A stretch of DNA of 64,000 nt from Methanoculleus thermophilus (GTDB lineage Archaea; Halobacteriota; Methanomicrobia; Methanomicrobiales; Methanoculleaceae): contig NZ_BCNX01000006.1 in assembly GCF_001571405.1 (NCBI RefSeq), positions 62,001 to 126,000 of the forward strand, written 5' to 3'. Below are positions 22,844-39,217 of this stretch, piece by piece (position 1 is the first letter of the stretch; each line of letters starts with the position of its first letter). The position numbers and the translations under genes are program-made. The notes under the pieces are model-generated. The model saw nothing but the letters and a program-made list of their open reading frames with translations, was not told the origin of the DNA and did no database searches.

Positions 22844-23104
22844 TCAGATCTCGGCGTCGCTTCCAGGCATGCGCCTTCGTTTGGCCTCTTCCGGGCCAAA
22901 CGCCAGTCGGATCAGACCAGCATAGAACTTCAGGCAGAACGGCCTGAAGAAACGGACACCCATCTCCAGAAGAGGGAGGAGACCCTTGCGGCGTATCCGA
23001 TACTGGCCACTCTCGTGGTCCATCTTCATGTAGACCGGCGCGATCTCCCCAAACGGGTATCTGTTGTCTGCCGCCCGTACCCAGGTATCACCAACACCTG
23101 ACAG
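22844..23104 (-). pseudogene. Unrecognised gene remnant
   Basis: The minus strand is open from just after a stop (23105-23107) to 22844: 87 codons reading ...G-V-G-D-T-W-V-R-A-A-D-N-R-Y-P-F-G-E-I-A-P-V-Y-M-K-M and ending in R-R-R-M-P-G-S-D-A-E-I. Protein-like text continues upstream of the only ATG (23029), and no start codon with a Shine-Dalgarno sequence fits the open region. It therefore looks like the C-terminal remnant of a longer protein. A hydrophobic-basic segment G-V-R-F-F-R-P-F-C-L-K-F-Y-A-G-L-I-R is near the end. I do not recognise the family. It sits at the edge of the CapK block, where rearrangement is evident. Confidence 0.45.
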
Positions 23105-23118
23105 TCAGATCTCGTTTT

Positions 23119-24537
23119 TTATACCATCTCACATTCATGGTAGCCCCATCGATCCAGCGGCAGTTTCTGTATCAGAAACTGGTATTTCCCGCGCCGCGTG
23201 CGGGGAATTTTTCCGACAAAGCGGATAGTCACATCTACGTCGCCTTCAAACTTCTCTTCGAGTTCGCGGAGTATCTGCTCCGTGTCGCGTCCGGTATACC
23301 CCGGTCTTTTCACGATCCGCATCAGAACCTCCCCGACCTTCTCCTGGTAGAACTGGAACTGCGCAACGTTGTCAAAGACGCCCGAGTGCATGTTCACCGA
23401 CGTCATCGGTATGAGCCGGTGGTCCTTGGTTACGATGAACTCCTGGAGCCTCCCCTCCACTTTCTCGAGCAGCGGATAGGCACGGCCACAGGAACACGAA
23501 CCGTCTCCGAGGACTGCGGCATCCATCGTCCGGTACCGGATGAGAGGGCAGATGTAGTTGGTGAGGCCCGTTGTGACCACCTCACCCATCACCCCCGGGG
23601 TCGTTATGGGCCTGCCGTCTCTCCCGATCAGTTCAACGATGCTGTACTCGGGGAAGATGTGGTAGTGCGTGCTCTCCTCGCACTCCCCGGCAAGCACCGT
23701 CTGCTCGGAGTTCCCGTACCAGGAGAATACCCGGCACCCGAAGGCCTTGGTGAGCAGGTCCCGCTGCCAGGGGTAGAGGTTCTCGGACCCGCAGAGGATT
23801 GCCTTGACGGTTGGAAACCGCGGGACGTCATGCTCCACCATGTATCGAGCGAGGATCACGGCCGCTGAGGGGTAAGCCTGGATGAACCGGGGCCGGAACC
23901 GCCGGATCCGGTCGATGTAGGCCGGGAGGGTCTCTTCGGTCATGTGATGGGAGGACATCAGCAGCCACCGGCCAAAGAGCGCTTTCTTCCAGTAGGTGCC
24001 GTTTGAGGCCGTCTCCACCGCATGGCCCCGAAGGATGACGCAGCGGTCGCGAAACCGGTAGCCGACACGATCCCACTGGGTCTTCATGAAGGCCCACTCC
24101 CGGGCCCGAGAGGCTCCTTTCTCGTAGTAGAACCCGACCGGGATGCCGGTGGACCCCCCGGTGGTGACGTACTCGAATGCCGACTCCGGGTAATTCCTGG
24201 CCTTCAGGTCGGGGAGGTTGGCCTGGACAATCTCCTTTGTCAGGAAGGGAAGAAGTTCGAGGTCTGCCGGGCTCGCGATGTCCTCCGGGACAAGTCTCCG
24301 CTCCCGGAAGACTCGACGGTAGTAGGGGACGTTTTCATAGGCGTGATCAAGCAGATGCGAGAGCGCCTCCATCTGATATGCCTCGAGTTTCTCCCGGCTC
24401 CACGTACGGGACCGGCGGAGGAACTCATAGGTCTTTCTGTAGACTGAGTATGCAGGTAGGATGTGAAGCGCCCGCATTGTCACTGAATGTTCGGGCAGGA
24501 GATCCTTCAATCCCCAACGAGTCATCCGCACACCCAT
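23119..24537 (-). CDS. PaaK/CapK-family adenylate-forming enzyme, copy 1
   Basis: A 472-aa relative of phenylacetate-CoA ligase, as found in capsule gene clusters (CapK). The nucleotide-binding loop is T-T-G-G-S-T-G-I-P-V-G near 145-155; adenylate motifs Y-G-N-S-E-Q-T and Y-R-T-M-D follow. It should activate a carboxylic acid as an acyl-AMP; the acceptor (CoA, a sugar amine or a carrier) is unknown. From about residue 55 to 370 it is almost identical to copies 2 and 3. The first 50 or so and last 100 residues differ. Its strand matches copies 2 and 3, but a FemAB-like gene in the opposite direction lies between. Confidence 0.82.
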   Translation of the reverse strand: MGVRMTRWGLKDLLPEHSVTMRALHILPAYSVYRKTYEFLRRSRTWSREKLEAYQMEALSHLLDHAYENVPYYRRVFRERRLVPEDIASPADLELLPFLTKEIVQANLPDLKARNYPESAFEYVTTGGSTGIPVGFYYEKGASRAREWAFMKTQWDRVGYRFRDRCVILRGHAVETASNGTYWKKALFGRWLLMSSHHMTEETLPAYIDRIRRFRPRFIQAYPSAAVILARYMVEHDVPRFPTVKAILCGSENLYPWQRDLLTKAFGCRVFSWYGNSEQTVLAGECEESTHYHIFPEYSIVELIGRDGRPITTPGVMGEVVTTGLTNYICPLIRYRTMDAAVLGDGSCSCGRAYPLLEKVEGRLQEFIVTKDHRLIPMTSVNMHSGVFDNVAQFQFYQEKVGEVLMRIVKRPGYTGRDTEQILRELEEKFEGDVDVTIRFVGKIPRTRRGKYQFLIQKLPLDRWGYHECEMV

Positions 24538-24647
24538 CGGGACTGCTCATATCAGTACTCAGCATTAAACGTTTTGCTTATGTGATAGCAATATCGCAAA
24601 ATTGCTGGTGAGGTCCGTTGAGATTTAACACGCTTAAACGAACTCTC

Positions 24648-24839
24648 TTAGAAGAAATCCTTAGAATATGGTATATTCACCTGATCCTGTCCAGTAGTCT
24701 GATAGAAATGCTTTAAAAACTCGGGAAATAGGCTCTTTTCCGAAAAAATGACCCATATGTCGCTGCATGTATTTGTATTATTGCCTTCCAATGACTGAAA
24801 CGAGATATCATCCAGGGCATGAAGGCGGAGCGCGACCAT
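24648..24839 (-). CDS. Short hypothetical protein, 63 aa
   Basis: ATG 24839 is preceded by GGGAGGTAGGGG, a good Shine-Dalgarno match with about 6-7 nt spacing, and the frame runs 63 codons to TAA at 24648. It reads M-V-A-L-R-L-H-A-L-D-D-I-S-F and ends K-D-F-F. The codons are AT-richer than those of the neighbours. A TATA-like ATATCTATATATCC lies 17-33 nt upstream of the ATG, so transcript start and Shine-Dalgarno sequence nearly coincide. No family recognised; it may be a small accessory protein or the 3' part of a decayed gene. An in-frame extension upstream to 25094 runs antisense to the FemAB gene and is not credible. Confidence 0.4.
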   Translation of the reverse strand: MVALRLHALDDISFQSLEGNNTNTCSDIWVIFSEKSLFPEFLKHFYQTTGQDQVNIPYSKDFF

Positions 24840-24853
24840 GCCCCTACCTCCCG

Positions 24854-24926
24854 TGTTTGGATATATAGATATTACGGCTGGTCCGCTGTGAGTTCTCCAG
24901 GCGGCCTGAAGAAAGGTATATAGGCC
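24854..24926. promoter_or_regulatory. Divergent promoter region
   Basis: Two TATA-like elements face apart. GGATATATAGATAT (24858-24871, read as its complement on the minus strand) lies before the 63-aa ORF. AAGGTATATAGGCC at 24913-24926 lies before the plus-strand FemAB-like gene, giving a leader of about 35 nt for the latter. Confidence 0.45.
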
Positions 24927-24983
24927 TGTGGGGTGATTGGAGGTCGCCGAATGACGAACGCGATAGCGAGACGTGGTGATTGA

Positions 24984-26000
24984 ATGACCGTGAGTAAAAT
25001 TGACGACAAGGATACCTGGGACACCTTCATCGACGAGAGCCCCTCCGGGCTCCTCTTTCATAAGTGGGATTACCTCCACCTGACGGCAAAACATACTGGG
25101 AGTACACTCCTTCCCTACGCGGTCTACAATGGGGATGAGATAATCTCCCTATTCCCGCTCTTCTATCGGCGGATACATGGCATTAATGCAATCTTCTCCC
25201 CGCCCCCTCTCACTGTGATACCCCATCTTGGGTGCGTAACGAGCAGAGAGTTTCAGGGATTCAAGCAGAGCAAGAAGGAGTTCCTGCTTGGGATGATGGC
25301 AAAAGAGATTCGGGAAGAAATCCAGGGACTTTCGCCGAATTACCTCTCGATAGCCTTTGTCCCGGAGTTTCGTGATATACGCCATTACCTCTGGGACCAG
25401 TGCAGCCCTATGGTCCGGTACACGTACACCATCAACCTCGAGCGCCCCCTTGAGGAGATCTGGAAGAATTTCCACTCCCTACTCCGAAAAAAACTAAAAA
25501 AAGAAGAAAAGGCCGGTCTAAGGCTGGAGAGAAGCAACGATACCGCAACACTCCACCGGCTCATCTCCGATCGCTACCGTGACCCATCGCTTGCGATTCC
25601 GCCGATAAAGCGAGAGTACCTCGACGACCTTGTTCGTGCCTATCCTGACAGGATCAGCGTCTATACACTTTACGATGCAGAGGATGAGATCACAGCCGTG
25701 GTGGCGGCCCAGGAGTACAAGCGGTTCCTGCTCTGGGTAGGTGCGCCGAAGATCGAGACTTCTCATGACGGAAACGCGTATCTCCAGTGGCTGCTTATTC
25801 AGCGTGCACAGGCCGAAGGCTACCGGACCTTCGAGAACATGGGTGCCAACAACCCGGATCTCATCTTCTTCAAGTCGAAGTTCAACCCCGATCTCCGGAC
25901 GTACTTCGAGATCGTGAAGAAAGATACCCTTGGTGCATTCTCCGAATGGGCGTATCTCTCCTTTGCCAAGCGGTTGATGATGACGACCGGCAGGATCTAA
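24984..26000 (+). CDS. FemAB-like GNAT-fold acyl/aminoacyltransferase
   Basis: A cytoplasmic protein of 338 aa in the FemAB/BioF2-type acetyltransferase group. The N-terminal half has the F-H-K-W-D-Y-L segment and L-F-P-L-F-Y-R-R strand typical of these proteins. The central basic stretch L-R-K-K-L-K-K-E-E-K-A-G-L matches the R-x2-[IV]-[KR]-K-A-x-[KR]-x-G-[VL] pattern of FemAB-like enzymes. The C-terminal half has A-Y-L-Q-W-L-L-I-Q-R-A-Q-A-E-G-Y and F-K-S-K-F-N-P. Known members add amino acids or acyl groups to peptidoglycan or cell-surface sugars. Sitting between CapK-type activating enzymes suggests it could transfer an activated acyl or amino-acid group, but that is inference. Confidence 0.78.
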   Translation: MTVSKIDDKDTWDTFIDESPSGLLFHKWDYLHLTAKHTGSTLLPYAVYNGDEIISLFPLFYRRIHGINAIFSPPPLTVIPHLGCVTSREFQGFKQSKKEFLLGMMAKEIREEIQGLSPNYLSIAFVPEFRDIRHYLWDQCSPMVRYTYTINLERPLEEIWKNFHSLLRKKLKKEEKAGLRLERSNDTATLHRLISDRYRDPSLAIPPIKREYLDDLVRAYPDRISVYTLYDAEDEITAVVAAQEYKRFLLWVGAPKIETSHDGNAYLQWLLIQRAQAEGYRTFENMGANNPDLIFFKSKFNPDLRTYFEIVKKDTLGAFSEWAYLSFAKRLMMTTGRI

Positions 26001-26146
26001 GAGGACTGCGGACTCTCGATTGGACCGGGGTACAGGGTCATAGGCCCGTCCCGGTCGGCACACTCCATATACTCGCCGAACGCATCCGGCGAAAAGATCC
26101 TCCCACCGTCCGCAGACACCGGCTGAAACACCGGTTCGCCTCCTGT

Positions 26147-27535
26147 CTAAAGATCCCCGAGCGTTATTGGGAGTTTCTGGATGAGGTAGCGGAACTTCCC
26201 ACCCTCGGTGCGCGGGATCTCGTCGACGAAGTGAACATGGACGTTCACATCATCCCCAAGTTGCCACCGGAGCTCCTGGGTCAACTGCAGGGTATCCTTC
26301 TCGGTGTAGGTCGGCTTTCTGACGATCTTCATGATCAGTTCGCCGATCTCTTCCTGGTACATCTGGAACTGTTTGATGTTCTCAAAGGCTCCTGACTCGT
26401 AGTTGATTGGGGTGACGGAGATCAGGTGCCCTCCCCGGGTCACGATGAACTCCTGAAGCCTTCCTTCCACTTTCTCAAGCAGCGGATACTCCCTTCCGCA
26501 CGAGCAGCGCTTCTCCGTCGCAACCGCGACATCCATGGTGCGGTAACGGATGAGGGGGCAGACGTAGTTCGTGAGGTTCGTGGTGACCACTTCCCCCATC
26601 GCCCCCGAACCCCTGACTGGCCTGCCGTCTCTCCCGATCAGTTCAACGATGCTGTACTCGGGGAAGATGTGGTAGTGCGTGCTCTCCTCGCATTCCCCGG
26701 CAAGCACCGTCTGCTCGGAGTTCCCGTACCAGGAGAAGACCCGGCACCCGAAGACCTCGGTGAGCAGACTCCGCTGCCAGGGATAGAGGTTCTCGGATCC
26801 GCAGAGGATTGCTTTGACGGTCGGGAACGGTTTAATCTCGTGTTCTCGCATGTATCGGGCGAGGATCACGGCCGTCGATGGATAGGCGTGGATGAACCGG
26901 GGCCGGAACCTCCGGATCCGGTCGATGTAGGCCGGGAGGGTCTCTTCGGTCATGTGATGGGAGGACATGACCAGCCACCGGCCAAAGAGTGCTTTCTTCC
27001 AGTAGATCCCGTTTGAGGCCGTCTCCACCACATGGCCCCGGAGGATGACGCAGCGATCGGTGAACCGGTAGCCGATGCGGTCCCATTGGGTCTTCATGAA
27101 GGCCCACTCCCGGGCCCGGGAGGCGCCTTTCTCGTAGTAAAAACCCATGGGAGTCCCGGTGGACCCGGATGTACGCACGTACTCGAATGCCGACTCGGGG
27201 TAGTTTCTGGCCTTCAGGTCGGGGAGGTTGGCCTGGACAATCTCCTTTGTCAGGAAGGGAAGAAGTTCGAGGTCTGACAGGGTGGCGATATCCTCGGGGA
27301 CAAGCCCCCGCTCCCGGAAGACCCGACGGTAGTAGGGGACGTTCTCGTAGGCGTGATCAAGCAGACGCGAGAGCGCCTCCATCTGGTAGGCCTCAAGTTC
27401 CTCCCGGCTCCACCACTGGGACTCCTGGAGGAACGTATACAGTTTGCGGTATGCATGGTAGGATGGCACCAGGCTGAGCGCTTTCATGGTGAGTGGGTTT
27501 GCACGCAGTGCCGCTGTTATGAAATCAGCCTTCAT
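26147..27535 (-). CDS. PaaK/CapK-family adenylate-forming enzyme, copy 2
   Basis: A 462-aa paralogue of copies 1 and 3. The loop here reads T-S-G-S-T-G-T-P-M-G-F-Y-Y-E-K, the form nearest to canonical PaaK; copies 1 and 3 have T-T-G-G-S-T-G-I-P-V. GGAGGT lies 5 nt before ATG 27535. The central region is nearly identical at DNA level to copy 1 (for example around 26631-26750 versus 23631-23750). The last 90 or so residues diverge, which in this family is the mobile C-terminal domain. It starts 15 nt after copy 3, so the two are surely co-transcribed. Substrate unknown. Confidence 0.82.
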   Translation of the reverse strand: MKADFITAALRANPLTMKALSLVPSYHAYRKLYTFLQESQWWSREELEAYQMEALSRLLDHAYENVPYYRRVFRERGLVPEDIATLSDLELLPFLTKEIVQANLPDLKARNYPESAFEYVRTSGSTGTPMGFYYEKGASRAREWAFMKTQWDRIGYRFTDRCVILRGHVVETASNGIYWKKALFGRWLVMSSHHMTEETLPAYIDRIRRFRPRFIHAYPSTAVILARYMREHEIKPFPTVKAILCGSENLYPWQRSLLTEVFGCRVFSWYGNSEQTVLAGECEESTHYHIFPEYSIVELIGRDGRPVRGSGAMGEVVTTNLTNYVCPLIRYRTMDVAVATEKRCSCGREYPLLEKVEGRLQEFIVTRGGHLISVTPINYESGAFENIKQFQMYQEEIGELIMKIVRKPTYTEKDTLQLTQELRWQLGDDVNVHVHFVDEIPRTEGGKFRYLIQKLPITLGDL

Positions 27536-27550
27536 TGCGCACCTCCGGCG

Positions 27551-28978
27551 TTAAGCCACGATATTCGGGGATATGTGCTCAAACTTGGCCATCTCCTCTT
27601 CGCCAAAACGCACAGGAAGGTTCTGGACGAAGTAGCGGTGCTTCCCCCGGGCGGTAAGTGGGATATGCTCAACGTATCGTATGGTGATGGTGACGTCGCT
27701 TCCGCAGCTTCGGCTCACTTCCTGGTAGAGGTACTCTGCATCCTGGCTGTTGAATCCGGGCTTTCTCACGATGTTCAGGATGACCTCCCCGACCTTCTCC
27801 TGGTAGAACTGGAACTGTTTAACATTATCGAAGGCGTCGGTATCGATGTTCATGGTAACCCCTGAGAGGAGTTCACCTCTGCAGGTCACGATGAAGTCCT
27901 GAACCCTCCCGTCAACCCGTTCGAGCAGTTGATATGAGCGGCCGCAGGTACAGGGTCCTTCGGCCTCCGTTGCAAGGTCCATTGTCCGGTAACGGATGAG
28001 GGGGCAGATGTAGTTGGTGAGGCCCGTTGTGACCACCTCACCCATCACCCCCGGTCTCGTTACAGGCCGACCGTCTCTCCCGATCAGTTCAACGATCCCG
28101 TACTCGGGGAAGATGTGGTAGTGCGTGCTCTCCTCGCACTCTCCGGCAAGCACCGTCTGCTCGGAGTTCCCGTACCAGGAGAAGACCCGGCATCCGAATG
28201 CCTCGGAAAGCAGGCTTCGCTGCCAGGGATAGAGGTTCTCGGACCCGCAGAGGATTGCTTTGAGGGTCGGGAACGGCTTGATCTCGTGCTCCATCATGTA
28301 TCGGGCGAGGATCACGGCCGTCGAGGGATAGGCCTGAATGAACCGGGGCCGGAACCTTCGGATCTCATCGATGTAGGCCGGGAGGGTCTCTTCGGTCATG
28401 TGATGGGAGGACATGACCAGCCACCGGCCAAAGAGCGTCTTCTTCCAGTAGATCTTGTCTTCCGGCGAGCCGACGATGTAGCCCCGGAGAATGACGCAGC
28501 GGTCGATGAACCGGTAGCCGACACGGTCCCAGAGGGTCTTCATGAAGGCCCACTCCCGGGCCCGGGAGGCTCCTTTTTCGTAGTAGAACCCGACCGGGAT
28601 GCCGGTGGACCCCCCGGTGGTGACGTACTCAAAGGCCGACTCGGGGTAGTTTTTAGCCTTCAGGTCGGGGAGATTGTTCTGCAGGTCTTCCCGGGTCAGG
28701 AATGGGAGGAGTTTGAGGTCATTTAAGGTGGCGATATCCTCGGGGACAAGTTCCCGCTCCCGAAAGACCCGGCGGTAGTAGGGGACGTTCTCGTAAGCGT
28801 GGTCGAGCAGGCGTCCGAGCGCCTCTACCTGGTAGGCCTCGATCTCCTCCCGGTTCCATGTGCGGGACTGGCAAAGAAGCGCATAGGTCTTTTTATACTC
28901 ATTATAGAATGGGAGGATGCTGAGAGCCCTTGTTGTGAATGAATCCCGGGTGCAGTTCATCGATCCAGAGTATACCAT
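27551..28978 (-). CDS. PaaK/CapK-family adenylate-forming enzyme, copy 3
   Basis: A 475-aa paralogue, first in the tandem on the minus strand. GAGGAG lies about 7 nt before ATG 28978. It shares the core with copies 1 and 2 (Y-E-N-V-P-Y-Y-R-R-V-F-R-E-R near 65 and the S-W-Y-G-N-S-E-Q-T motif near 285). In the segment after the A-F-M-K-T motif it reads I-V-G-S-P-E-D-K-I-Y-W where copies 1 and 2 read V-E-T-A-S-N-G-x-Y-W. Its C-terminal domain is unique. C-T-C-G-R in place of C-S-C-G-R keeps the two conserved cysteines that may bind metal. Confidence 0.82.
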   Translation of the reverse strand: MVYSGSMNCTRDSFTTRALSILPFYNEYKKTYALLCQSRTWNREEIEAYQVEALGRLLDHAYENVPYYRRVFRERELVPEDIATLNDLKLLPFLTREDLQNNLPDLKAKNYPESAFEYVTTGGSTGIPVGFYYEKGASRAREWAFMKTLWDRVGYRFIDRCVILRGYIVGSPEDKIYWKKTLFGRWLVMSSHHMTEETLPAYIDEIRRFRPRFIQAYPSTAVILARYMMEHEIKPFPTLKAILCGSENLYPWQRSLLSEAFGCRVFSWYGNSEQTVLAGECEESTHYHIFPEYGIVELIGRDGRPVTRPGVMGEVVTTGLTNYICPLIRYRTMDLATEAEGPCTCGRSYQLLERVDGRVQDFIVTCRGELLSGVTMNIDTDAFDNVKQFQFYQEKVGEVILNIVRKPGFNSQDAEYLYQEVSRSCGSDVTITIRYVEHIPLTARGKHRYFVQNLPVRFGEEEMAKFEHISPNIVA

Positions 28979-29432
28979 TGCTTATCTCCTCTTTTCGGGC
29001 ACTCTGTCCATACGCACCGGTACGGCACCCCAATCCCCCCGGCCCGCCAGCGAGCTGTCATGCTTCCCCCGAATATCGATTGCCGGGCGATGCACCTCGC
29101 TTGAGTGGTCCGGGGTTCGGTCCTGAGTGCATCGGGGTTTGTATACTCCCAAATGAGGTATAAATAAATTATGATGGCACACCTCCCACTACTCCAGGTT
29201 CGGGGTCTTGTGAGTGCACCGGAAGCCCCGGCGGGAGTTCTTAGTGGAGTTCAAATTTGGCTCTGTTTTTCAAATTGCCAGATTCCCTGCCTTTTCGATC
29301 TCAGAATACCTTTGGGCAAACCCAATCTCGTGGTGGACGTATCTGGATAAACTATAAATATCCACAGCCCTATGGGCATATGTCTCGGTGAGATAAGGCG
29401 ACGATCGCCGGGCTCTTGTCTCCGTCGGAGTC
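28979..29432. promoter_or_regulatory. Intergenic promoter region between copy 3 and the radical SAM gene
   Basis: A 454 bp stretch without a convincing gene. TATA-like elements are GGTATAAATAAATTATG near 29154-29170 and AAACTATAAATATCC near 29348-29362; the latter is well placed to drive the plus-strand radical SAM gene at 29433. T-runs near 29258-29270 could end a transcript. Nothing else recognised. Confidence 0.45.
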
Positions 29433-30650
29433 ATGTGTGCCCGGGTTGGGGGGGAGATAATTATTCTAGAGAAGGCTATTCCAGATACCAGTAGCAGTGC
29501 GGACGTCTTTACGGGTGTCCCAAGTGAACATGATGTCCTAAATGAAGTCCGAGCACTGGCCGGAGAGTTGCGCAGACAGAACGGGGTCGCTCCACAGGAT
29601 CTCGATTTTACAATTCCCATCGGTTGGGAAGAGCGGGTAGGTTACCTCGATGGTCAGCCGGTTCGACGGCTGATTATCTTTCTCCGATCCACTGGTTGTG
29701 AATGGGTCGAGAAGACCGGGGGCTGCACGATGTGCGGGTTTTACTGTGCGACGTCCCGGGGCAGAGCGGTCTCTGCGGAGGAGTATATCGCGCAGTTCGA
29801 GTACGTGATGGACGCCGTCGATCTCGGAGATTACCCGATCATCTCGATCTACAACGACGGGAATCTCTTCAACGAGCACGAGATGCCGGTCGCAGCCATC
29901 GAGAAGATCTGCTCATACATCAACAATTATCAAAACATCAAGAAGGTGGTCGTCGAATCAAGGATCGATTACTCGCCGGACGAACATGTGCTGAGGATGA
30001 AGAAGGCATTAGGAGGCCGGCAGCTCGAGGTGGCGTTCGGGTTTGAGTCCGCAAACCCCCTGGTGATGAACCTCTGCATCAACAAGGGGTTCTCTACGAA
30101 CAACTTCGATCACTTCCACTCAAGGATGCAGAGTATGGGTGTGCTGACAAAACCGCTTCTGCTCGTTAAACCGCCGTTCCTCACCGAGGCGGAGGCGGTA
30201 CGTGATATCGTCGAGACCGTCGCCTACTGTGTATCAAAGGGTATCGATTACGTGGATCTTGAGGTGACGACGGTCGAGAAGAACACCGTCGTGCACGAAC
30301 TCTGGAAGAACAACCTTTACCGCCCGTCGTGGCTCTGGAGCCTCGTCGACATCCTGCAGCAGTGCCGGGAGCGGTTCGGGGACCGTGCTCATGTCTACGT
30401 CAGCCCCTGGACCTACTCGGTCGAGTCGCTCGACTGGGCCAGGAACTGCGGGAAATGCGATGACGAGGTCATCAGGGCAATCGACCGCTACAACTGCCGC
30501 TTTGATGTAACGGAGTTCGATGGGCTGGACTGCTCGTGCCGCGACAGTGAGTGGAAAGAAGCCGTCACAAAGGCGGATCCCCGCAAGATCCCGGAGAGGA
30601 TCCGCGAGCAGCTGGCGTATGTCCGTAGTACCCGGATCTCATCACTGTAA
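29433..30650 (+). CDS. Radical SAM protein, RaSEA-like
   Basis: A 405-aa radical SAM enzyme. Cluster cysteines are C89, C98 and C101 (S-T-G-C-x8-C-x2-C-G-F), the spacing seen in archaeosine synthase partner RaSEA and Elp3-like relatives rather than the common Cx3Cx2C. Following text Y-N-D-G-N-L-F and F-G-F-E-S-A-N-P-L-V-M also fits that family. C-terminal cysteines in N-C-G-K-C-D and D-C-S-C could bind a second metal. RaSEA proper works on archaeosine in tRNA. This could be that enzyme or a paralogue modifying another substrate; its place beside the CapK block is the reason to consider the latter. Confidence 0.72.
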   Translation: MCARVGGEIIILEKAIPDTSSSADVFTGVPSEHDVLNEVRALAGELRRQNGVAPQDLDFTIPIGWEERVGYLDGQPVRRLIIFLRSTGCEWVEKTGGCTMCGFYCATSRGRAVSAEEYIAQFEYVMDAVDLGDYPIISIYNDGNLFNEHEMPVAAIEKICSYINNYQNIKKVVVESRIDYSPDEHVLRMKKALGGRQLEVAFGFESANPLVMNLCINKGFSTNNFDHFHSRMQSMGVLTKPLLLVKPPFLTEAEAVRDIVETVAYCVSKGIDYVDLEVTTVEKNTVVHELWKNNLYRPSWLWSLVDILQQCRERFGDRAHVYVSPWTYSVESLDWARNCGKCDDEVIRAIDRYNCRFDVTEFDGLDCSCRDSEWKEAVTKADPRKIPERIREQLAYVRSTRISSL

Positions 30651-30948: not shown

Positions 30949-33096
30949 TCACAACCCGACCCGCCCAAGATCGATCGTCCGGGGTGTTCCGGTATCGATC
31001 GAGTCCCACGCCGCAAACGTCGCAAGCGTCGTTGCGACGCTCGCCGGGAAGTCGGGCTCTTCGCCCTTCACGAACGCCAGGAGTTCCTCGAAAAACCCCT
31101 TCTCCTGGGTAAGCCACCGCCTCTCACGCGATGCCTTCCCGTCCCGCCGGAGTTCAAGGTCGCGAAAGTCGGTGATCCGCCCGACGGCGTTGCCGCAGAA
31201 GACCTCGATCATCTCTTTTGGGTAGGACCGATCCCCGAGGGTCGTGTAGGTGACTGTCCCGACCGACCCGTCGTCGAAGGCCAGGGTCGCCTGGAAATTG
31301 TCGTACTTTGGAAGATCCCCGGTCGGCTCGATAGCCCGGGCATAGACCTGGACCGGCCGCGCACCGGTGATGTACTGCATAAAGTCGATGAAGTGGCAGC
31401 ACTCCGAGATCAGCATCCCGCCGCCCTGCTCGCCGTCATGCACCCAGTGCCCGGACGGGATCTGCCCGGCGTTGACGCGGTAGTGCAGGACGGTCGGCGT
31501 CGTCCGGTTCGAAAAGAACTCCTTCATCCTCCGGGCAAGAGGGGAGTAGCGCCGATTGAACCCGACCATCAGCCGCTGCCCGGACTCGTTCCATGCGGAA
31601 ACGACCTCCTTAAGTTCCTCGATGCTGGTGGCAAGAGGCTTCTCCACGAAGACATCTTTTCCGGCACGGAGAGCCTCGGCCGCAAGGCTAGCATGCAGGT
31701 CGTTGCGGGTCGCGATCAGCACCGCATCGATCGCAGGATCGCTTAGAATCTCGCGGTAGTCGGTGGTGCAGTAGGAGAATCCGTACTTCTTCGCGACCGA
31801 TTGCGCCGAGAGCCCCGTCGCGGTCGCGACCGCCGCAAGGTCCGCCGGGAGTGCCGAAAGATGCGGGTAGAGAGAGGAGAGGGCGTGAACTCCGGCGCCG
31901 ATGCACCCTATTCTTCGAAGACCGGTGGAAGCCTTCCGCGGCTGCCTCCCGGACTCCGGGAGGCGAACGACGGTGCCGGAAGGGCCTGCACCGTTCGGGC
32001 TGTACTGGAGGAGGACCCCGATGAACCGTTCTCTACCTGTGCTGATGAGGTTGTAGGCCTCCGGTGCATCGTCAAGAGGGAAGGTGTGGGTGATCAGGGG
32101 AGCGAGATCGATCTTCTTCTGCTGTATCAGAGAGAGGAACGCCTCCATGTTCCTTCGCTCGGTCCAGCGGACGTATATCGGGTAATCGAGCCCCTTCTCC
32201 TCGTAGTTTCGATCGTAGCGTCCAGGGCCGTAGGACCGGGAGACGACGACCTCCGCCTCTTTCGCGTAGAAGACATCCCGGGGCAGGTTCATCCCCACAT
32301 TCCCGACGACCACGACCCTGCCCTGTTCCCGAACGAGGTGCCCGGCGGCCTCGACGGGGGCGCTTGACCGTGTGGCCGCGGTGATGATGACCGCGTCCGC
32401 CCCGAACGGCGAGAGGCTCTTCACCCTCTCGACGAGGCCGTCGTAGTTCGAGACGAGATCGGCCCCGAGTTTTTGAGCGAGCGAAAGCTTTCCCGGATCA
32501 ATATCGATCCCGATCACCCGGCACCCGGCGGCCTTGAGGATCTGGACGGATAGCAGCCCGATCAGCCCTAGCCCTATTACTGCGACGTTCTCGCCGACCG
32601 TGACCTTCGCGTTCCGGACTCCGTGCATCGCGATCGATCCGACGGTCGTAAACGCTGCTTCTCTGAGGCTGACGCCGTCCGGAACCTTGACACAGAGGTT
32701 TCGCGGTACCGCGACGTACTCCGCGTGCACCGCATACCCCGCTCCGCCGCAGGCGACACGGTCGCCGACCTCAAACTCATCGGACGCGGTCTGGACCACC
32801 GTGCCTGCACAACTGTAGCCGAGCGGCTCCGGCTTTGAGAGACGACCCATCGCCTGCCGGTACGCCGAGAGGGGGCCGTCGGTGCCGATTTTCTGGAGAA
32901 TTCTCTTCACGTCGTCGGGGCGTGCCTTCGCCTTGCCGACGAGCGACTGCTGTGCGAGGTTGATCAGCGACGACTCCGTGCCGGCGCTGATGAGGGAGTA
33001 AGCGTTCTCGACGACCACCCCCCGTGTTACGGTGGGAACGGGAACGTTCTCCACCCGGATAGACCCTGACTGCAAGTCGAGCAGTACCTGTTTCAT
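30949..33096 (-). CDS. Fused zinc-type dehydrogenase and Gfo/Idh/MocA oxidoreductase
   Basis: A bi-domain oxidoreductase of 715 aa. Residues 1-370 or so are a medium-chain dehydrogenase with the NAD(P) loop G-L-G-L-I-G-L-L near 165. Residues 390-715 are a Gfo/Idh/MocA domain with the nucleotide loop G-C-I-G-A-G-V-H and the E-K-P-L-A motif. Such fusions occur in polysaccharide clusters and probably oxidise or epimerise a sugar or sugar nucleotide. ATG 33096 is chosen: GGTGGAGA lies upstream and it overlaps the previous stop as ATGA. Last gene of the six-gene operon that starts at 39217. Confidence 0.85.
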   Translation of the reverse strand: MKQVLLDLQSGSIRVENVPVPTVTRGVVVENAYSLISAGTESSLINLAQQSLVGKAKARPDDVKRILQKIGTDGPLSAYRQAMGRLSKPEPLGYSCAGTVVQTASDEFEVGDRVACGGAGYAVHAEYVAVPRNLCVKVPDGVSLREAAFTTVGSIAMHGVRNAKVTVGENVAVIGLGLIGLLSVQILKAAGCRVIGIDIDPGKLSLAQKLGADLVSNYDGLVERVKSLSPFGADAVIITAATRSSAPVEAAGHLVREQGRVVVVGNVGMNLPRDVFYAKEAEVVVSRSYGPGRYDRNYEEKGLDYPIYVRWTERRNMEAFLSLIQQKKIDLAPLITHTFPLDDAPEAYNLISTGRERFIGVLLQYSPNGAGPSGTVVRLPESGRQPRKASTGLRRIGCIGAGVHALSSLYPHLSALPADLAAVATATGLSAQSVAKKYGFSYCTTDYREILSDPAIDAVLIATRNDLHASLAAEALRAGKDVFVEKPLATSIEELKEVVSAWNESGQRLMVGFNRRYSPLARRMKEFFSNRTTPTVLHYRVNAGQIPSGHWVHDGEQGGGMLISECCHFIDFMQYITGARPVQVYARAIEPTGDLPKYDNFQATLAFDDGSVGTVTYTTLGDRSYPKEMIEVFCGNAVGRITDFRDLELRRDGKASRERRWLTQEKGFFEELLAFVKGEEPDFPASVATTLATFAAWDSIDTGTPRTIDLGRVGL

Positions 33097-34283
33097 AAAT
33101 CTCCACCCCAGATTTGTGCTTGAGTGAGACAATCGAGAATTTCTGATGTCATGAAGAGATCGGGGAAGTTCTTCGACGGTTCCACGGTCGAGGACCGGAT
33201 CCCGAGCAGTCGACGGAGGACCTCAAACGACCGGGTCTCCGCGGTCTTTGCATAGCGCCTGCGGGCAAGCTCGCGGTAGACCGCGTAGCCGAACCGGAAC
33301 GTTCGATGCCGCAACGGATAGTCCCCGAGCGCTGCCGTCTTCGCCGCCGCCCTGACCGATGGGACGAGATCGGCCCACCGGCCCGGCTCCCACCTGGGGG
33401 CGATTCCTACCACGTTCTCTGCAAGCCACGCAAGAGCGAGATCGGCGTTCTCCCGGTAGCGGTCGTCCATCCTGGCCGCATAGGCAAAGGACGCGTGGGC
33501 GAAGGCGTAGGCGCCCGAGAGGCAGTATGCGAATGGAAGGCCGCTCCTCGACCAGTCGAACCGCCCGTCGGGGTATTGAGCGGCGGCGAGCCACCGTGCC
33601 CCCCGATCGATGCTCTCGTCGATCCGCTCGTCGCAGAGCACCTCGTTTGCCTTGGCGAGGTAATAGATCGTCACCCCCTGGTAGTGCACGCAAGGGATGT
33701 CGAAGACGAACGGGTACGTCCCCTTATCGACCGCATAGGGGTAGACGCCGTCTGGGCGCTGGTGGCGGACGACGTTCTCCGCCGCCCGGAGAGCGGCCGC
33801 CCGGGCAACCGGATCGTCGTAGCGCTCCGCGTACCGGGCAAGAAACGCTCCGCACGAGGCATCGACGTTCAGGTGGTCGGCGGTGTAGCCCGAGGACTTC
33901 AGGAAGTAGCCGGGCCGTTTTTCGGCCTCGATGACGTAGTCGCGGGCCCATTGGAGATTCTCCTCGTGCGGATACCGGTCCGCCGCCTCAAGGAGCGCAT
34001 CGCCGACAAAAGCCGTGATCAGGGCCGAGGGCTGGTTGTAGTTGACGTGGATCTCGTTGTAGGAGCCGTCGGGGTTCTGGCAAGCCGTAACGTACTCGAG
34101 GATAGGGCCCACGAGGGGATCGCCGCCGGACCGGAGCATCGCCTTTGTGACCTCGGCGTGGACGCGGTTGCGGACGATCGGAAAGACCGGGTCACGGATG
34201 TACGCAATCCCGCCGTCGACGACCGCAAGATCCCGGACCGCCCTGAGAGTCCGGGAGAGGAGCGATTTTATGGCTCCGTCCAT
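33093..34283 (-). CDS. Alpha-toroid (six-hairpin/prenyltransferase-like fold) protein
   Basis: A 396-aa protein with repeating helical hairpins, each ending in a Q-x-P-D-G-x-(Y/F) type turn: C-Q-N-P-D-G-S-Y near 68-76, H-Q-R-P-D-G-V-Y near 174-181 and A-Q-Y-P-D-G-R-F near 236-243. This pattern is typical of alpha/alpha toroids such as polysaccharide lyases, glycosidases and terpene cyclases. No signal peptide. In comparable bacterial clusters the equivalent slot beside the bi-domain oxidoreductase and GT4 often holds a heparinase-type protein, so a role in polysaccharide modification is plausible but not shown. It overlaps both neighbours (16 nt and 4 nt). Confidence 0.6.
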   Translation of the reverse strand: MDGAIKSLLSRTLRAVRDLAVVDGGIAYIRDPVFPIVRNRVHAEVTKAMLRSGGDPLVGPILEYVTACQNPDGSYNEIHVNYNQPSALITAFVGDALLEAADRYPHEENLQWARDYVIEAEKRPGYFLKSSGYTADHLNVDASCGAFLARYAERYDDPVARAAALRAAENVVRHQRPDGVYPYAVDKGTYPFVFDIPCVHYQGVTIYYLAKANEVLCDERIDESIDRGARWLAAAQYPDGRFDWSRSGLPFAYCLSGAYAFAHASFAYAARMDDRYRENADLALAWLAENVVGIAPRWEPGRWADLVPSVRAAAKTAALGDYPLRHRTFRFGYAVYRELARRRYAKTAETRSFEVLRRLLGIRSSTVEPSKNFPDLFMTSEILDCLTQAQIWGGDL

Positions 34284-35476
34284 GCCATCATCTCGATATG
34301 TTGCTTCAGTTTCTGAGCGATTGAGCGCCGGTCGTAGTGTTTCACGACATACTCGCGTCCACGCCGTCCCATCTCCTCTCTCCTCTCCGGGTCCTCAAGG
34401 AGCGATATGAGCGCCGCAGCGATCGCCTCCGGGGTATTCTCCGCAATGATCCCCGCACCCGACTTCTCGGCGAGATGGGCGATCTCGCCGCTTCCGCAGC
34501 CGACGAAGGGTATCCCGCAGGCCATATACTCGTATGCCTTGGTGGGTGCTGCGTACTCGAGGTTCTCGAGTTTCTTTAAGGGTGCCACACCGATCAGGGA
34601 CTCGGAGAGGAGCCGGGGAATCTCTTCACGTGGGAGGATGCCCGTGAAGATGACCGAGTCACTTATACTCTCAGCCTTCACGAGGTCTTTGAGGCGCTCC
34701 TCGATATCGCCGTCGCCGACGATGAGAAACTTCAGGTTGTATGTGCCGTTCATCGACTTGACGGCAAGGGCAACCTTATCAAGATCCTGGGCATGCCCGA
34801 CGTTGCCGGCATAGATGATCTGCTGCTTCTTTCCGTTGCCCCTTGGAGAGAAGAAGTCCGTGTTGACACCGTTTGGCATCAACTCCATCGGGGCCGTGAC
34901 CCGGTAGCGCGACGAGATCCTCCGCCCGAGTTCTTCTGTCGTGACCCCGACGAGATCGGCGCGCAGAAGGCACATCTGCTCGAACCTGCGGCTCAACCTC
35001 TCAAAAAGACTCCCCTCCCTAAGGAAGCCGAGGCTTATCGATGCATCGATCCAGAGGTCGCGGATATCGAGGATCCATTTCACCCGGCTTGTCCGCTTCA
35101 GGATGTAGCCCGGGATCCCGGTAAAGAGGGGCGGTGCCGAGGTCATGATCGCATCGAACCGGTTCCGGGCGAGCAGGAGCCAGAGTGCGGCATGGATGGG
35201 GAAGATCAGGTAATACCCCATCCTGCTTGCGAACCCCGGGTCCCTGGTGACCGGTTGCCACGTCCAGAGCCGCACGACCCGGACACCGTCGATCTCCTGC
35301 ACGTCCGACCGCTTCCAGGTGCGGCGAAACGATCCTGTGGGGAACGTGGGGTGAGGCGCAATCACGGTCACGTCGAGGCCGAGCCGTGCAAGGTGCACGG
35401 CGGTGTCGTATATCCGTGATGCGTTTCCCGACTTTTCTGGCGGATAATGTTGTGATACGATACAGACCCGTTTCAT
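34268..35476 (-). CDS. Glycosyltransferase family 4
   Basis: A 402-aa GT-B fold enzyme. The N-terminal S-Q-H-Y-P-P-E-K-S-G-N-A-S-R loop and the central I-Y-A-G-N-V-G-H-A-Q-D-L motif fit WecA-independent GT4 transferases. The donor-site segment is P-T-K-A-Y-E-Y-M-A-C-G-I-P near 320-332. It adds a sugar from a nucleotide donor to a growing glycan at the cytoplasmic face. ATG 35476 is preferred over 35488 because GAGGAG lies 4-5 nt before it. It follows wecC after 73 nt and overlaps the toroid gene by 16 nt. Confidence 0.88.
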   Translation of the reverse strand: MKRVCIVSQHYPPEKSGNASRIYDTAVHLARLGLDVTVIAPHPTFPTGSFRRTWKRSDVQEIDGVRVVRLWTWQPVTRDPGFASRMGYYLIFPIHAALWLLLARNRFDAIMTSAPPLFTGIPGYILKRTSRVKWILDIRDLWIDASISLGFLREGSLFERLSRRFEQMCLLRADLVGVTTEELGRRISSRYRVTAPMELMPNGVNTDFFSPRGNGKKQQIIYAGNVGHAQDLDKVALAVKSMNGTYNLKFLIVGDGDIEERLKDLVKAESISDSVIFTGILPREEIPRLLSESLIGVAPLKKLENLEYAAPTKAYEYMACGIPFVGCGSGEIAHLAEKSGAGIIAENTPEAIAAALISLLEDPERREEMGRRGREYVVKHYDRRSIAQKLKQHIEMMAWTEP

Positions 35477-35549
35477 GGAACTCCTCATGCAGTTCGAGTG
35501 CAGCCGTCGACGATGATCGATCCTCCCCGTGTTACGCCGTCATTGGGGA

Positions 35550-36923
35550 CTAGATAAAGCCCTCCCGCCCGTTCTGGGTGAGCAGGGTGAGTGACGGCGG
35601 CGATGTGGGCGCGATTGATTGTGCAGTATCTGTAGGATAGACGCTTGCCGGTGGAACGATCTCACCTGTGGGCACCGGTTGCACCGATGAACCGTCTCCG
35701 AGAACCCGGACGGCAAAACCCTGGTTGGCCCACCTCTCGTGGTCGAGAATGTTTCTGGTATCGATGACGAGCCTGGTTCTCACCTGGAGTCCCGCGGGCT
35801 CGAGCGTGCGAAACGCGTCATGGTCGGCGAGTACGACGATGCAGTCGCTTCCTGCGGCCGCGTCCGCCGCATCCATGAGGGGGTACGGGAACTCGCTCAC
35901 GTAAGGGTCGTGGCACCGGATGGCATACCCTTCATTCTCAGCAAGCTGGATAAACTTGAATGCCGGGCTCTCCCGGGTATCCCCGACGTTGCCTTTGTAG
36001 GCAACGCCAAAGATGCTGATTACCGGGTCTCTCACGCTGGCAAGCAGACCACGGACGATGTGCAGGAGATAATTCGGCATGGAGTCGTTGACTTCCCGCG
36101 CCGTAGAGACCATCCTGCACCGTGTCGAGTTCTCGGTCAGGAACCAGGGATCGATGGCGATGCAGTGTCCTCCCACACCAGGACCGGGGTTGAGGATAGA
36201 GACACGGGGATGCTTGTTTGCGAGGGTGATCGCCTCCCAGACGTTGATCCCGCACTCCTCGGCGAGCTGGGCGAACTCGTTTGCAAGCGCGATGTTTACG
36301 TCACGGCAGGTGTTCTCCATCAACTTGACGAACTCCGCCGTCCGTATATCGGTCTGGTAGATCTGGCCGCGGACGAAGGTCTGGTAGATCGATGTCGCCC
36401 TGTCGATAGAGTCCCGGTCGTATCCGCCAATGATACGGGAGTTTTCTGACATCTCCTGTATTGTGTGTCCGGGGATTGCTCGTTCGGGGCAATGGGCATA
36501 CAGGAATTCCCCGATCCTGACGCCGCTCTTCTCGAGTCTTGGGATGACGACCCGTTCGCTCGTTCCGGGCGGGACGGTCGATTCAAGAATGACAAGATTT
36601 CCTTTGCGAAGGTGGGGAACGATCGCGTCGGCGGCCGATTTGACGTATGTGAGGTTCGAGACCTTGGTTGCCGGATCCAGGGGCGTCGGGACGGCCATCA
36701 GAAATACATCTGCGGGTTCAGGCTCAATGCTTGCGGTAAATCGGTCTTTCGCCTCGCGATACAGATCCTCGATCCCGGGCTCCTTGAACGGGAGGTTCCC
36801 ATGGTTTAAGCAGTCTACCACATCCTGCTTCACATCGACACCCACGACATCTGCTCCATGGGCGGCAAAGAGCAGCGCGGTCGGCAGTCCAATATATCCT
36901 AATCCCAGTACACAGATCTTCAT
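35550..36923 (-). CDS. wecC: UDP-N-acetyl-D-mannosaminuronate dehydrogenase
   Basis: A nucleotide-sugar dehydrogenase that oxidises UDP-ManNAc to UDP-ManNAcA with NAD. NAD loop V-L-G-L-G-Y-I-G-L-P at the N-terminus; catalytic Cys in P-G-P-G-V-G-G-H-C-I-A-I-D-P-W-F; C-terminal UDP-binding domain with G-V-A-Y-K-G-N-V-G-D-T-R-E-S-P. ATG 36923 is favoured (GAGGAG 7 nt upstream); ATG 36929 lies one base after that sequence. The last 45 residues or so, rich in P, T and S, go beyond the usual end. It follows wecB by 19 nt, matching the biochemical order. Confidence 0.9.
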   Translation of the reverse strand: MKICVLGLGYIGLPTALLFAAHGADVVGVDVKQDVVDCLNHGNLPFKEPGIEDLYREAKDRFTASIEPEPADVFLMAVPTPLDPATKVSNLTYVKSAADAIVPHLRKGNLVILESTVPPGTSERVVIPRLEKSGVRIGEFLYAHCPERAIPGHTIQEMSENSRIIGGYDRDSIDRATSIYQTFVRGQIYQTDIRTAEFVKLMENTCRDVNIALANEFAQLAEECGINVWEAITLANKHPRVSILNPGPGVGGHCIAIDPWFLTENSTRCRMVSTAREVNDSMPNYLLHIVRGLLASVRDPVISIFGVAYKGNVGDTRESPAFKFIQLAENEGYAIRCHDPYVSEFPYPLMDAADAAAGSDCIVVLADHDAFRTLEPAGLQVRTRLVIDTRNILDHERWANQGFAVRVLGDGSSVQPVPTGEIVPPASVYPTDTAQSIAPTSPPSLTLLTQNGREGFI

Positions 36924-36942
36924 GCGCATTCTCCTCGTAGGG

Positions 36943-38022
36943 TTATCGGGACCGTGCGGCGGCGCAGACCATCACGATCATCTTTCCGGCGATTCCATCG
37001 CCGTAAGGGTTCATCCAGCCGGATTCCCTGGTTGCTGCGGCGCGAACCCCGGCAAGGATACTCGTCGAGTCGGCACCGACCAGAATGTTCGAGCCGACAT
37101 CCAGCGTCTCCGGGCGCTCCGTGTCATACCGCATCGTGGCGCACGGAACGCCGAGAATACATGTCTCCTCCTGAACACCGCCGGAGTCGGTCAGCACGAG
37201 TCTTGCCTGGGACTCCAGCTGCAGGAACTCTAAAAATCCGAATGGTTTGGTGAGATTCAGTCCGTTGACCCCGATGCCCAGTTCCTTGATCCTCTTTTCA
37301 GTCCTCGGATGAACCGGGAAGACGACCGGCATGGAGAACTCCTTCTGGACGCTCTCAAGACCCTTGAGGATTTCTTTGAGCCGTCCCCGGTTGTCCACGT
37401 TCTCCTGACGGTGAGCGGTGACGAGGAAGTATTCCCGGGGCTTGAGGTCGAGATCTTTTAAGACGTTGACTTTCCTCTTCGAGATCTCGAGATTCTGGTA
37501 CACCGCATCGACGATGGTGTTGCCGGTCGTGCAGATCTTAGAGCCTTCAATCCCCTCGGATATGAGGTTCTTTCTGGCATTCTCCGTCGGGGCAAAGAGG
37601 TAGTCTGAGATATGGTCGATGAGCACCCTGTTGATCTCCTCCGGCATCTGTCGATTGAAACTCCGAAGGCCAGCCTCGATATGGCCCACCCGCACATGGA
37701 GTTTCGATGCTGCGAGAGCCCCGGCCATAGCAGTGTTTGTATCCCCTTGCACCAGAACGATCTCGGGAGACTCCTTCATCAGGACGTCCTCGACGCCGGT
37801 CATGATCTTCGCTGTCTGGCTGGCATGGGTCCCGGGACCCACGTCGAGGTTGTAGTCCGGATCTGGCAGTTCAAGTTCCTCAAAGAAGACCCGGTCCATC
37901 TCGGGGGAATAATGCTGCCCGGTATGGAGGATGAAATAGTCCAGACCTCTGCGTTCACATTCCCGGATGACGGGAGACATCTTGATGATCTCCGGCCGCG
38001 TACCAAGTATGATTCCAATCAT
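36943..38022 (-). CDS. wecB: UDP-N-acetylglucosamine 2-epimerase (non-hydrolysing)
   Basis: Converts UDP-GlcNAc to UDP-ManNAc in the cytoplasm. The N-terminus I-I-L-G-T-R-P-E-I-I-K-M-S-P, the middle H-I-E-A-G-L-R-S and T-A-H-R-Q-E-N-V-D-N segments and the C-terminal D-S-G-G-V-Q-E-E loop are all intact. I start at ATG 38022, since homologues begin right at this point and GGAG precedes it by 6 nt; ATG 38034 is an alternative. Together with wecC it supplies UDP-ManNAcA, a building block of archaeal N-glycans and capsules. Confidence 0.92.
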   Translation of the reverse strand: MIGIILGTRPEIIKMSPVIRECERRGLDYFILHTGQHYSPEMDRVFFEELELPDPDYNLDVGPGTHASQTAKIMTGVEDVLMKESPEIVLVQGDTNTAMAGALAASKLHVRVGHIEAGLRSFNRQMPEEINRVLIDHISDYLFAPTENARKNLISEGIEGSKICTTGNTIVDAVYQNLEISKRKVNVLKDLDLKPREYFLVTAHRQENVDNRGRLKEILKGLESVQKEFSMPVVFPVHPRTEKRIKELGIGVNGLNLTKPFGFLEFLQLESQARLVLTDSGGVQEETCILGVPCATMRYDTERPETLDVGSNILVGADSTSILAGVRAAATRESGWMNPYGDGIAGKMIVMVCAAARSR

Positions 38023-38059
38023 TCTACGCTCCATCTCGTTGTTGTGCCCCTCATCCCTC

Positions 38060-39217
38060 TCACTCCTGCATTCTTGCAATAAGAGCGAGGGCTAGACCCA
38101 GTATGAGTGCAATTGTCCCCGGGATCAGGAAGAGCGACGCGAGCATACCCAGCTCGACCGGGACAAGACCCGTCGCACTGAAGTCCCAAAAGAACTGGAG
38201 CAGGACGAAGACGCCTGCGAAGATCGCGACGAGCCCGGGAAGACCAATACACAGGAGAGGTTTTCTCTCGATTGTGAGCCAGAATATCGACCCAAGTACC
38301 TCTATTCCATGGGATAGGGGGTTTTTCGTGGATGTGTGAAGGTCGTCACCATACTTACAGTTGATCGGTGTCTCTCCAACCCGCAGGTGCTTTTCCTGCG
38401 CGATCCGGAGCATCTCTGATTCGGTTGAGAAATCATCTTTTCGTAACGTATCAAGCATCGACTCCATTGTCTTCCGGTTCAGCGCCCGAAATCCGCACTG
38501 CGAGTCGGTGATCGAACTCCCGTTGCTGGTGGCCAGATCGAGCACAGCCCGCCCAAGCCTCCGATACAGGGGCATCTGGCCGAAGGTTCGAAACCCTATG
38601 ACGATGTCAGCAGTATCGGCGAGGATCGGTTCGGTCAGGAGAGGTATCTCCCTCGGGTTATGCTGACCGTCTCCATCCATGAAGACCAGACAGTCGTAAC
38701 CGTGTTCGATTGCGTATCTGAGAGCGTTCTTGATGCCCCGTCCTTTCCCCATCCGGCGGCCATGCGAGATGACGGTCGCACCGGCTTCCCGGGCGACCTT
38801 TGCGGTGCTGTCCGTACACCCATCATCGATCACCAGAACTTCGTCTGCATACAATCGGGCCGTCAGAACAACCGAGCCGATTGCAATCTCCTCATTAAAA
38901 CAGGGGATAGCGACAAGCGTTCTTATCCGGCCCGATCTTTTGGAGGGGAGGACTGCAGTCTCTGTGGTCTCGCTCACTATCCGCCAATGCTCCCTGGCTG
39001 TCGGCGTTCTCAATGGGGTAATCTGCTCCTGGACCTCGCAGTGGAGGGCAGGGATCTCGATCTGGCTCTCTTGCCCGACAAACCGGGGTGTATGTTCTTC
39101 CAACAATCTCTTATTCTGCGTATCTGTGTACTGCGGCGATGGTACCGTTGTTGCTTCGGTGAACCACCCCTCCAGGTGAGCGGGTGGACCCACCTGAACT
39201 GGATCCTTGTTGTACAT
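38060..39217 (-). CDS. Family 2 glycosyltransferase with C-terminal membrane anchor
   Basis: A 385-aa polyprenyl-phosphate sugar transferase-like protein. The GT-A domain starts near residue 100 (L-V-A-I-P-C-F-N-E-E), with D-D-G-C-T-D-S-T at 131-138 and the metal-binding D-G-D-G at 181-184. Two membrane segments at about 325-347 and 352-382 anchor it. The first 97 residues are polar, weakly conserved-looking and unusual for this family. Start ATG 39217 has GGGGGAAAG upstream. First gene of the glycan operon; it probably charges a lipid carrier (dolichyl phosphate in archaea) with a sugar. Confidence 0.85.
   Translation of the reverse strand: MYNKDPVQVGPPAHLEGWFTEATTVPSPQYTDTQNKRLLEEHTPRFVGQESQIEIPALHCEVQEQITPLRTPTAREHWRIVSETTETAVLPSKRSGRIRTLVAIPCFNEEIAIGSVVLTARLYADEVLVIDDGCTDSTAKVAREAGATVISHGRRMGKGRGIKNALRYAIEHGYDCLVFMDGDGQHNPREIPLLTEPILADTADIVIGFRTFGQMPLYRRLGRAVLDLATSNGSSITDSQCGFRALNRKTMESMLDTLRKDDFSTESEMLRIAQEKHLRVGETPINCKYGDDLHTSTKNPLSHGIEVLGSIFWLTIERKPLLCIGLPGLVAIFAGVFVLLQFFWDFSATGLVPVELGMLASLFLIPGTIALILGLALALIARMQE

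Follow-up and report, generated by a model that had tools for sequence, protein, structure and literature searches.

A RaSEA-family radical SAM enzyme at a conserved CapK–FemAB locus beside a putative surface-glycan operon of Methanoculleus

What might a radical S-adenosylmethionine (SAM) enzyme from a tRNA-modification family be doing among acid-activating ligases and next to a glycan operon? The question is raised by a stretch of 64,000 nucleotides (contig C6, positions 62001–126000) of the 2.2 Mb Methanoculleus thermophilus genome, referred to here as the window. The locus in question, termed the island, holds three genes for CapK/PaaK-type ligases, one for a FemAB-like transferase and one for a RaSEA-family radical SAM protein, denoted RaSEA-B, all of them intact. 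This set had been proposed, with RaSEA-like cysteines in the radical SAM protein, in a preliminary description of the window, and is borne out by open reading frames (ORFs), profile matches, synteny within the genus and substitution rates. The same description had set the start of the block at position 22844, where there is no gene but a capA remnant with an internal deletion, and had missed a gene encoding a protein of 63 amino acids (aa). The reading to which we lean slightly is that the island constitutes a decoration module for a surface glycan containing uronic acid, in which RaSEA-B has been re-specialized for a role at this locus.

According to the available part of the source, RaSEA converts the preQ0-lysine of tRNA to archaeosine (PMC11298593). 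RaSEA-B belongs to the same family by score, reaching 228.4–228.9 bits against TIGR01210, the RaSEA model (cut-off 212.15). It also retains the radical SAM motif C89-x8-C98-x2-C101 and the C-terminal NC..C / C.C cysteines, with C89, C98, C101, C339, C342, C367 and C369 near-invariant in both RaSEA-B and canonical sequences. These features would be expected if RaSEA-B were a second archaeosine enzyme, serving another RNA or another condition and merely located here, an explanation that we regard as improbable in view of the canonical enzyme. The possibility raised at the outset, that the window encodes the only RaSEA of the genome, did not hold: a canonical RaSEA (contig C3; 322.6 bits to TIGR01210) and ArcS (contig C10; 634 bits) are encoded elsewhere and, judged from sequence, the radical SAM gene of the window is not the tRNA enzyme of this genome. 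TIGR01210 is matched in 34 of the 35 genomes of the genus; the canonical copy, scoring 309–333 bits where complete, occurs in 31 of the 35 regardless of RaSEA-B, and in pieces in two others (G020 and G022), and the second copy is a protein of ~400–430 aa that scores ~220–240 bits when complete.

In a phylogenetic tree, for which the program warns that some long branches meet, RaSEA-B (21 rows) and canonical sequences (25 rows) separate, the former as a single clade with a support of 100/100; RaSEA-B is 26–29% identical to the two canonical copies with which it was aligned. Comparison of 21 RaSEA-B rows with 49 canonical rows identified 41 positions common to both groups and 28 that are conserved in each but with a different residue. 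The switched positions include stretches conserved throughout the canonical rows: FTSGS is replaced by YNDGN, and the DPV...GPHNC stretch by SP..YSV.SLD.ARNC, so that RaSEA-B lacks these and other residues that are near-invariant in archaeosine enzymes. Because these 28 positions are conserved differently, RaSEA-B is treated here as a member of the RaSEA family and is not filed as an archaeosine enzyme; together with the canonical RaSEA and ArcS encoded elsewhere and the well supported clade, they argue for re-specialization. Automatic annotation is likely to label RaSEA-B ‘archaeosine biosynthesis RaSEA’, since the TIGR01210 cut-off is passed, and for this clade the label is probably wrong.

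RaSEA-B had no significant match among the sequences of solved structures; for canonical RaSEA the search gave a weak hit to queuine lyase (6p78, E = 0.00069). Both RaSEA and queuine lyase cleave C–N bonds. A predicted model of RaSEA-B, built from eight sequences, has a mean predicted local distance difference test (pLDDT) score of 77.1. Fold searches with this model by Foldseek returned general radical SAM folds, with Elp3 first, and by VIA returned HydE, biotin synthase, RlmN and queuine lyase (Z = 14.1), among others. The fold search does not reveal the reaction, because only general radical SAM folds were recovered, within a narrow range of Z.

A profile search (E ≤ 1e-60) of 232 genomes of the order located RaSEA-B in 35, comprising 28 of the 35 genomes of the genus, three others of the family and four of Methanofollis. 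In 392 sampled genomes of the phylum the profile scores fall from 730 bits (RaSEA-B) to 212 bits (canonical), with none between. Across Methanoculleus the island is syntenic and joined to a glycan operon, in the order GT2-type glycosyltransferase, WecB, WecC, glycosyltransferase, 396-aa protein, bi-domain dehydrogenase, RaSEA-B, CapK, CapK, one to three FemAB, 63-aa gene, CapK, capA and then an oxidoreductase operon. A conserved neighbourhood, named in advance by the preliminary description as the sign of a system, is thus what the genus displays. In a sister genus, the island of two genomes (G080 and G081) holds two CapK and two FemAB genes. In M. thermophilus the island is partly reduced, with capA gutted and a single FemAB gene left. 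Ratios of nonsynonymous to synonymous substitution rates (dN/dS), calculated for the window against locus L053, are 0.13 for RaSEA-B, 0.12–0.22 for the CapK genes and 0.13 for the FemAB-like gene, indicating purifying selection on all five; with the same order kept throughout the genus, they suggest that the arrangement is more than chance.

The decoration-module reading draws first on this association with the operon. The bi-domain dehydrogenase, present in 39 of the 232 genomes of the order, accompanies RaSEA-B in all 31 of the non-Methanofollis genomes that have it, and wherever a locus of the family extends over the glycan operon, RaSEA-B is syntenic with it. Seven genomes of the genus gave no RaSEA-B match. 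One (G020) has a fragment at a contig end, in three (G015, G032 and G034) the dehydrogenase adjoins a contig end, and in one (G024) pieces of CapK lie on short contigs; the remaining two (G011 and G031), which are near-complete, have neither RaSEA-B nor the dehydrogenase, nor any member of the CapK clade or close FemAB relative, which also supports the reading. Synteny can persist without function inside one genus, and RaSEA-B and the glycan operon are encoded on opposite strands; both points would suit chance neighbours, that is, a functionally unrelated RaSEA-B whose place was merely inherited by the genus. Such an accident would be surprising given Methanofollis, in which RaSEA-B (~50% protein identity) has otherwise different neighbours and is again near FemAB and glycosyltransferases. 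This tie in two lineages also speaks against a second archaeosine enzyme.

In the four Methanofollis genomes (loci L128–L131), RaSEA-B adjoins one or two AsnB-like ligases, together with a glycosyltransferase, a FemAB protein and a VimE-like deacetylase (113 versus 440 bits, below cut-off), an arrangement that further supports a decoration module; families were assigned by searches on L129 and, for the other three loci, by clustering. Met-Cys, which would supply the glutaminase Cys2, is absent from the start of all eight AsnB-like proteins of the cluster, and the ATP-binding SGGLDSR motif is kept. RaSEA-B is missing from a similar locus of one Methanofollis genome (G090), and from loci of three further genomes (L183–L185; family searches on L184 only) in which FemAB is found with a distant CapK and a VimE-like protein. 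No VimE-type deacetylase was recognized in the block of the window.

The link to a surface glycan proved stronger than initially claimed. In three genomes of other families (G047, G108 and G125; the G125 contig ends at CapK) the glycan operon itself includes a CapK gene that neither RaSEA-B nor FemAB adjoins; these genomes have no RaSEA-B match, and in G047 the CapK gene is followed by capA. Since CapK lies within the operon in these genomes without RaSEA-B, it is part of the operon, and the FemAB, 63-aa and RaSEA-B genes look like later additions. This occurrence, and that of CapA in G047, likewise favours the decoration-module reading.

The three CapK proteins match models of the PaaK/F390-synthetase type (for example NF045666, 138–148 bits), all below the cut-off of the respective model, including every named equivalog (phenylacetate, F390, FlxY and DVU_1553), and match solved PaaK structures (4r1l, E = 1.6e-31; also 2y4o). 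In the alignment all three carry TGGSTG/TSGSTG, YGNSE and a GK near the C-terminus, of which we take GSTG to be the A3-like adenylation motif and GK to contain the late catalytic lysine. CapK2 and CapK3 are 71–75% identical to CapK1. In the 11 genomes with all three genes complete enough for comparison, residues 1–40 and 361–480 are alike by position between species (0.77–0.93) and not between paralogues (0.38–0.55), and for residues 241–320 the likeness within a genome (0.96–0.97) exceeds that between orthologues (0.91–0.92). This pattern fits three old paralogues with distinct ends, the core of which would have been evened out by gene conversion. As the ends differ and their differences are kept by position throughout the genus, the three enzymes probably have three specificities. 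Assemblies of the genus often break in the CapK region (23119–28978 of the window).

The FemAB-like protein scores 44.6 bits against PF13480 (cut-off 22), 52.3 bits against TIGR03019 (below the cut-off of 260.35) and 16.3 bits against the FemAB model PF02388 (below the cut-off of 24), and had no significant match among the sequences of solved structures. That PF13480, an acetyltransferase family, is a better Pfam match than FemAB, and that phenylacetate-CoA ligases are the nearest relatives of CapK with solved structures, would both be expected of an acyl rather than aminoacyl decoration, in which CapK would make an aryl- or fatty-acyl-coenzyme A (CoA), a GNAT-like enzyme would acylate the glycan and RaSEA-B would tailor the acyl group or act elsewhere. 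We consider this unlikely, given that the proteins adjoining RaSEA-B in Methanofollis are AsnB-like and not CoA ligases, and that the TIGR03019/VimA line is tied, in the portion of PMC7468200 that was available, to the transfer of serine or glycine. A paralogue of the FemAB-like protein (52% identity) is encoded on contig C16 of the same genome, with no recognized glycan neighbours. It lies near an apparent YcaO–TfuA pair, recognized by eye (L139, 7119–8171 and 9275–11138), and the same contig encodes a 241-aa protein (14036–14761) similar to the middle region of ArcS, with a score of 53.5 bits that falls short of the cut-off.

The preliminary description knew of no named pathway with this set, a statement that is not supported. 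Excerpts of PMC3684757 list WecB, a deacetylase, FemAB, WbpS (AsnB/WbpS) and CapK together in the psc1 exopolysaccharide (EPS) locus of Rubrivivax gelatinosus, one of the PEP-CTERM/XrtA EPS clusters, which thus share WecB, FemAB, CapK and glycosyltransferases in one locus with the island. The FemAB part also parallels the Wbp/Vim system of Porphyromonas gingivalis and Tannerella forsythia, in which a FemAB-like transferase accompanies a uronic-acid sugar pathway: in the available sections of PMC7468200, VimA matches the FemAB family TIGR03019 and is held to transfer serine or glycine to a uronic sugar, and the uronamide is shown to require WbpS. The Methanofollis loci additionally share with this system the VimE-like deacetylase and the AsnB-like ligases, the latter differing in their lack of Cys2. 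The CapK and FemAB glycan part thus resembles a known kind of locus, and the odd addition is the RaSEA-family member. The island differs from Wbp/Vim in being archaeal, in scoring far below the family cut-offs and in having CapK and RaSEA-B; in the EPS clusters, as far as the consulted text extends, no RaSEA-family radical SAM protein appears, and within the genus the island is not tracked by archaeosortase matches. No description of a RaSEA-family enzyme fixed in such glycan loci was found among open-licence PMC papers. Among methanogens, the parts of PMC2952790 at hand describe in Methanococcus voltae an N-acetylmannuronic acid that bears threonine at its position 6, and state that the threonine-attaching enzyme of M. 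maripaludis was unknown in 2010; the glycan predicted for Methanoculleus would resemble these N-glycans as a methanogen surface glycan with an amino acid on an N-acetylmannosaminuronic-type sugar. These bacterial and archaeal precedents, to the extent that they could be consulted, add to the case for a decoration module.

The decoration module might operate as follows, the substrates and reactions being ones that we infer. From their families, WecB, WecC, the two glycosyltransferases and the dehydrogenase of the operon would make and assemble N-acetylmannosaminuronic-type sugars. The CapK enzymes would form activated adenylates or thioesters of carboxylic acids, of which amino and acylamino acids are the likeliest, and the FemAB/GNAT-like enzymes would move the activated groups onto a sugar amine, by analogy with the proposal for VimA. 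Either the aminoacyl group or the sugar may undergo a radical SAM step catalysed by RaSEA-B, for which the likeliest reaction is cleavage of a C–N bond, like that of RaSEA on preQ0-lysine. Several observations weigh against this scheme besides the orientation of RaSEA-B. Retention of FemAB and CapK is not universal, the number of FemAB genes varying from one to three, and capA is lost here; three genomes (G017, G018 and G033) have RaSEA-B and lack a close FemAB and the 63-aa gene, which contig breaks inside the CapK repeats may explain but do not prove. Moreover, RaSEA-B of Methanofollis has no adjoining CapK of this clade, the carboxylate-activating partner being a different protein, and the parallel with Wbp/Vim is one of family and neighbourhood, with matches to the TIGR03019, NF053580 and AsnB models well below their cut-offs.

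If this scheme is correct, the chemistry of the cell-surface glycan has taken over a radical SAM enzyme from tRNA modification. The known substrate range of the RaSEA family would then be broader, and archaeal glycan biology would include a radical step; CapK, FemAB, RaSEA-B and the 63-aa protein would form a candidate set for how methanogens place amino acids on uronic sugars. A more specific version, which we hold to be a long shot, has RaSEA-B performing the lysine-to-nitrogen chemistry of RaSEA on sugars: a ligase, either CapK or the Methanofollis AsnB-like proteins lacking the glutaminase Cys2, would couple an amine donor, lysine or another, to an acylamino group or a uronic acid; N–C cleavage by RaSEA-B would then leave a primary uronamide or an amidine. 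Archaea would in that case amidate surface sugars without glutamine or ammonia.

The 63-aa gene was found through intergenic alignment. All 15 of the other loci searched have it at full length, and it occurs in 29 of the 232 genomes of the order, each with at least part of the island; the median dN/dS is 0.10 (45 pairs from ten loci) and a GAGGT motif precedes the ORF in 12 of the 12 loci listed. The protein matched no Pfam family at E ≤ 5 and gave no confident fold (mean pLDDT 53.8); it may assist CapK1 or the FemAB enzyme. A small conserved protein sharing a locus with a radical SAM protein and adenylating enzymes recalls a ribosomal-peptide-like pathway, with the 63-aa protein as a precursor modified by RaSEA-B, FemAB and the ligases, and a weak resemblance to lasso cyclases is seen in the Methanofollis AsnB-like proteins. 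We nevertheless judge this very improbable, as the protein is conserved over its whole length, including a C-terminal FF, without a clearly variable core, no peptidase or transporter was recognized in the block, and the gene was not found in Methanofollis, where a scan for small ORFs yielded nothing but short frames that were not considered genes.

The features of the island and operon are collected in Table 1. The capA remnant keeps both protein ends, residues ~35–308 being deleted; intact copies occur in other Methanoculleus genomes, and the homologue at L137 matches PF09587 at 201.6 bits.

Table 1. Positions in the window of the island, the capA remnant and the glycan operon.
Feature	Position	Strand	Basis or remark
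capA (PGA_cap) remnant	~22853..23125	-	tblastn with intact homologue L137:1490-2623
CapK1 (position c), PaaK/CapK-type AMP-forming ligase	23119..24537	-	
63-aa small protein gene, conserved, upstream of CapK1	24648..24839	-	Shine-Dalgarno-like GAGGT
FemAB-like transferase (PF13480; TIGR03019-like)	24984..26000	+	profile matches, dN/dS
CapK2 (position b), PaaK/CapK-type AMP-forming ligase	26147..27535	-	
CapK3 (position a), PaaK/CapK-type AMP-forming ligase	27551..28978	-	
RaSEA-B, 405 aa, second TIGR01210 paralogue	29433..30650	+	TIGR01210 score, separate clade, Cys motifs, dN/dS
Bi-domain oxidoreductase (zinc dehydrogenase + GFO/IDH/MocA)	30949..33132	-	
396-aa protein of glycan operon	33093..34283	-	weak squalene cyclase model matches, below cut-off
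Glycosyltransferase (Glycos_transf_1)	34268..35488	-	PF00534 92.4 bits
WecC-type UDP-sugar dehydrogenase	35550..36929	-	PF03721/PF00984/PF03720
WecB-type UDP-N-acetylglucosamine (UDP-GlcNAc) 2-epimerase	36943..38079	-	PF02350 387 bits
GT2-type glycosyltransferase	38060..39217	-	PF00535 69.2 bits

Within the operon, the WecC-type enzyme would be specific for UDP-N-acetylmannosamine (UDP-ManNAc), because WecB adjoins it, and the 396-aa protein is conserved along with the operon. A link to a sortase was considered and rejected, since weak PF09721 matches in 23 of the 35 genomes of the genus do not track the island: they also occur in G011 and G031, which lack it, and are absent from several genomes that have it. 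A search of Rfam gave no match at gathering scores. Elsewhere in the window, ~10750–16000 holds an array of ~80 direct repeats with a spacing of 66–68 nucleotides, resembling clustered regularly interspaced short palindromic repeats (CRISPR) and preceded by large ORFs.

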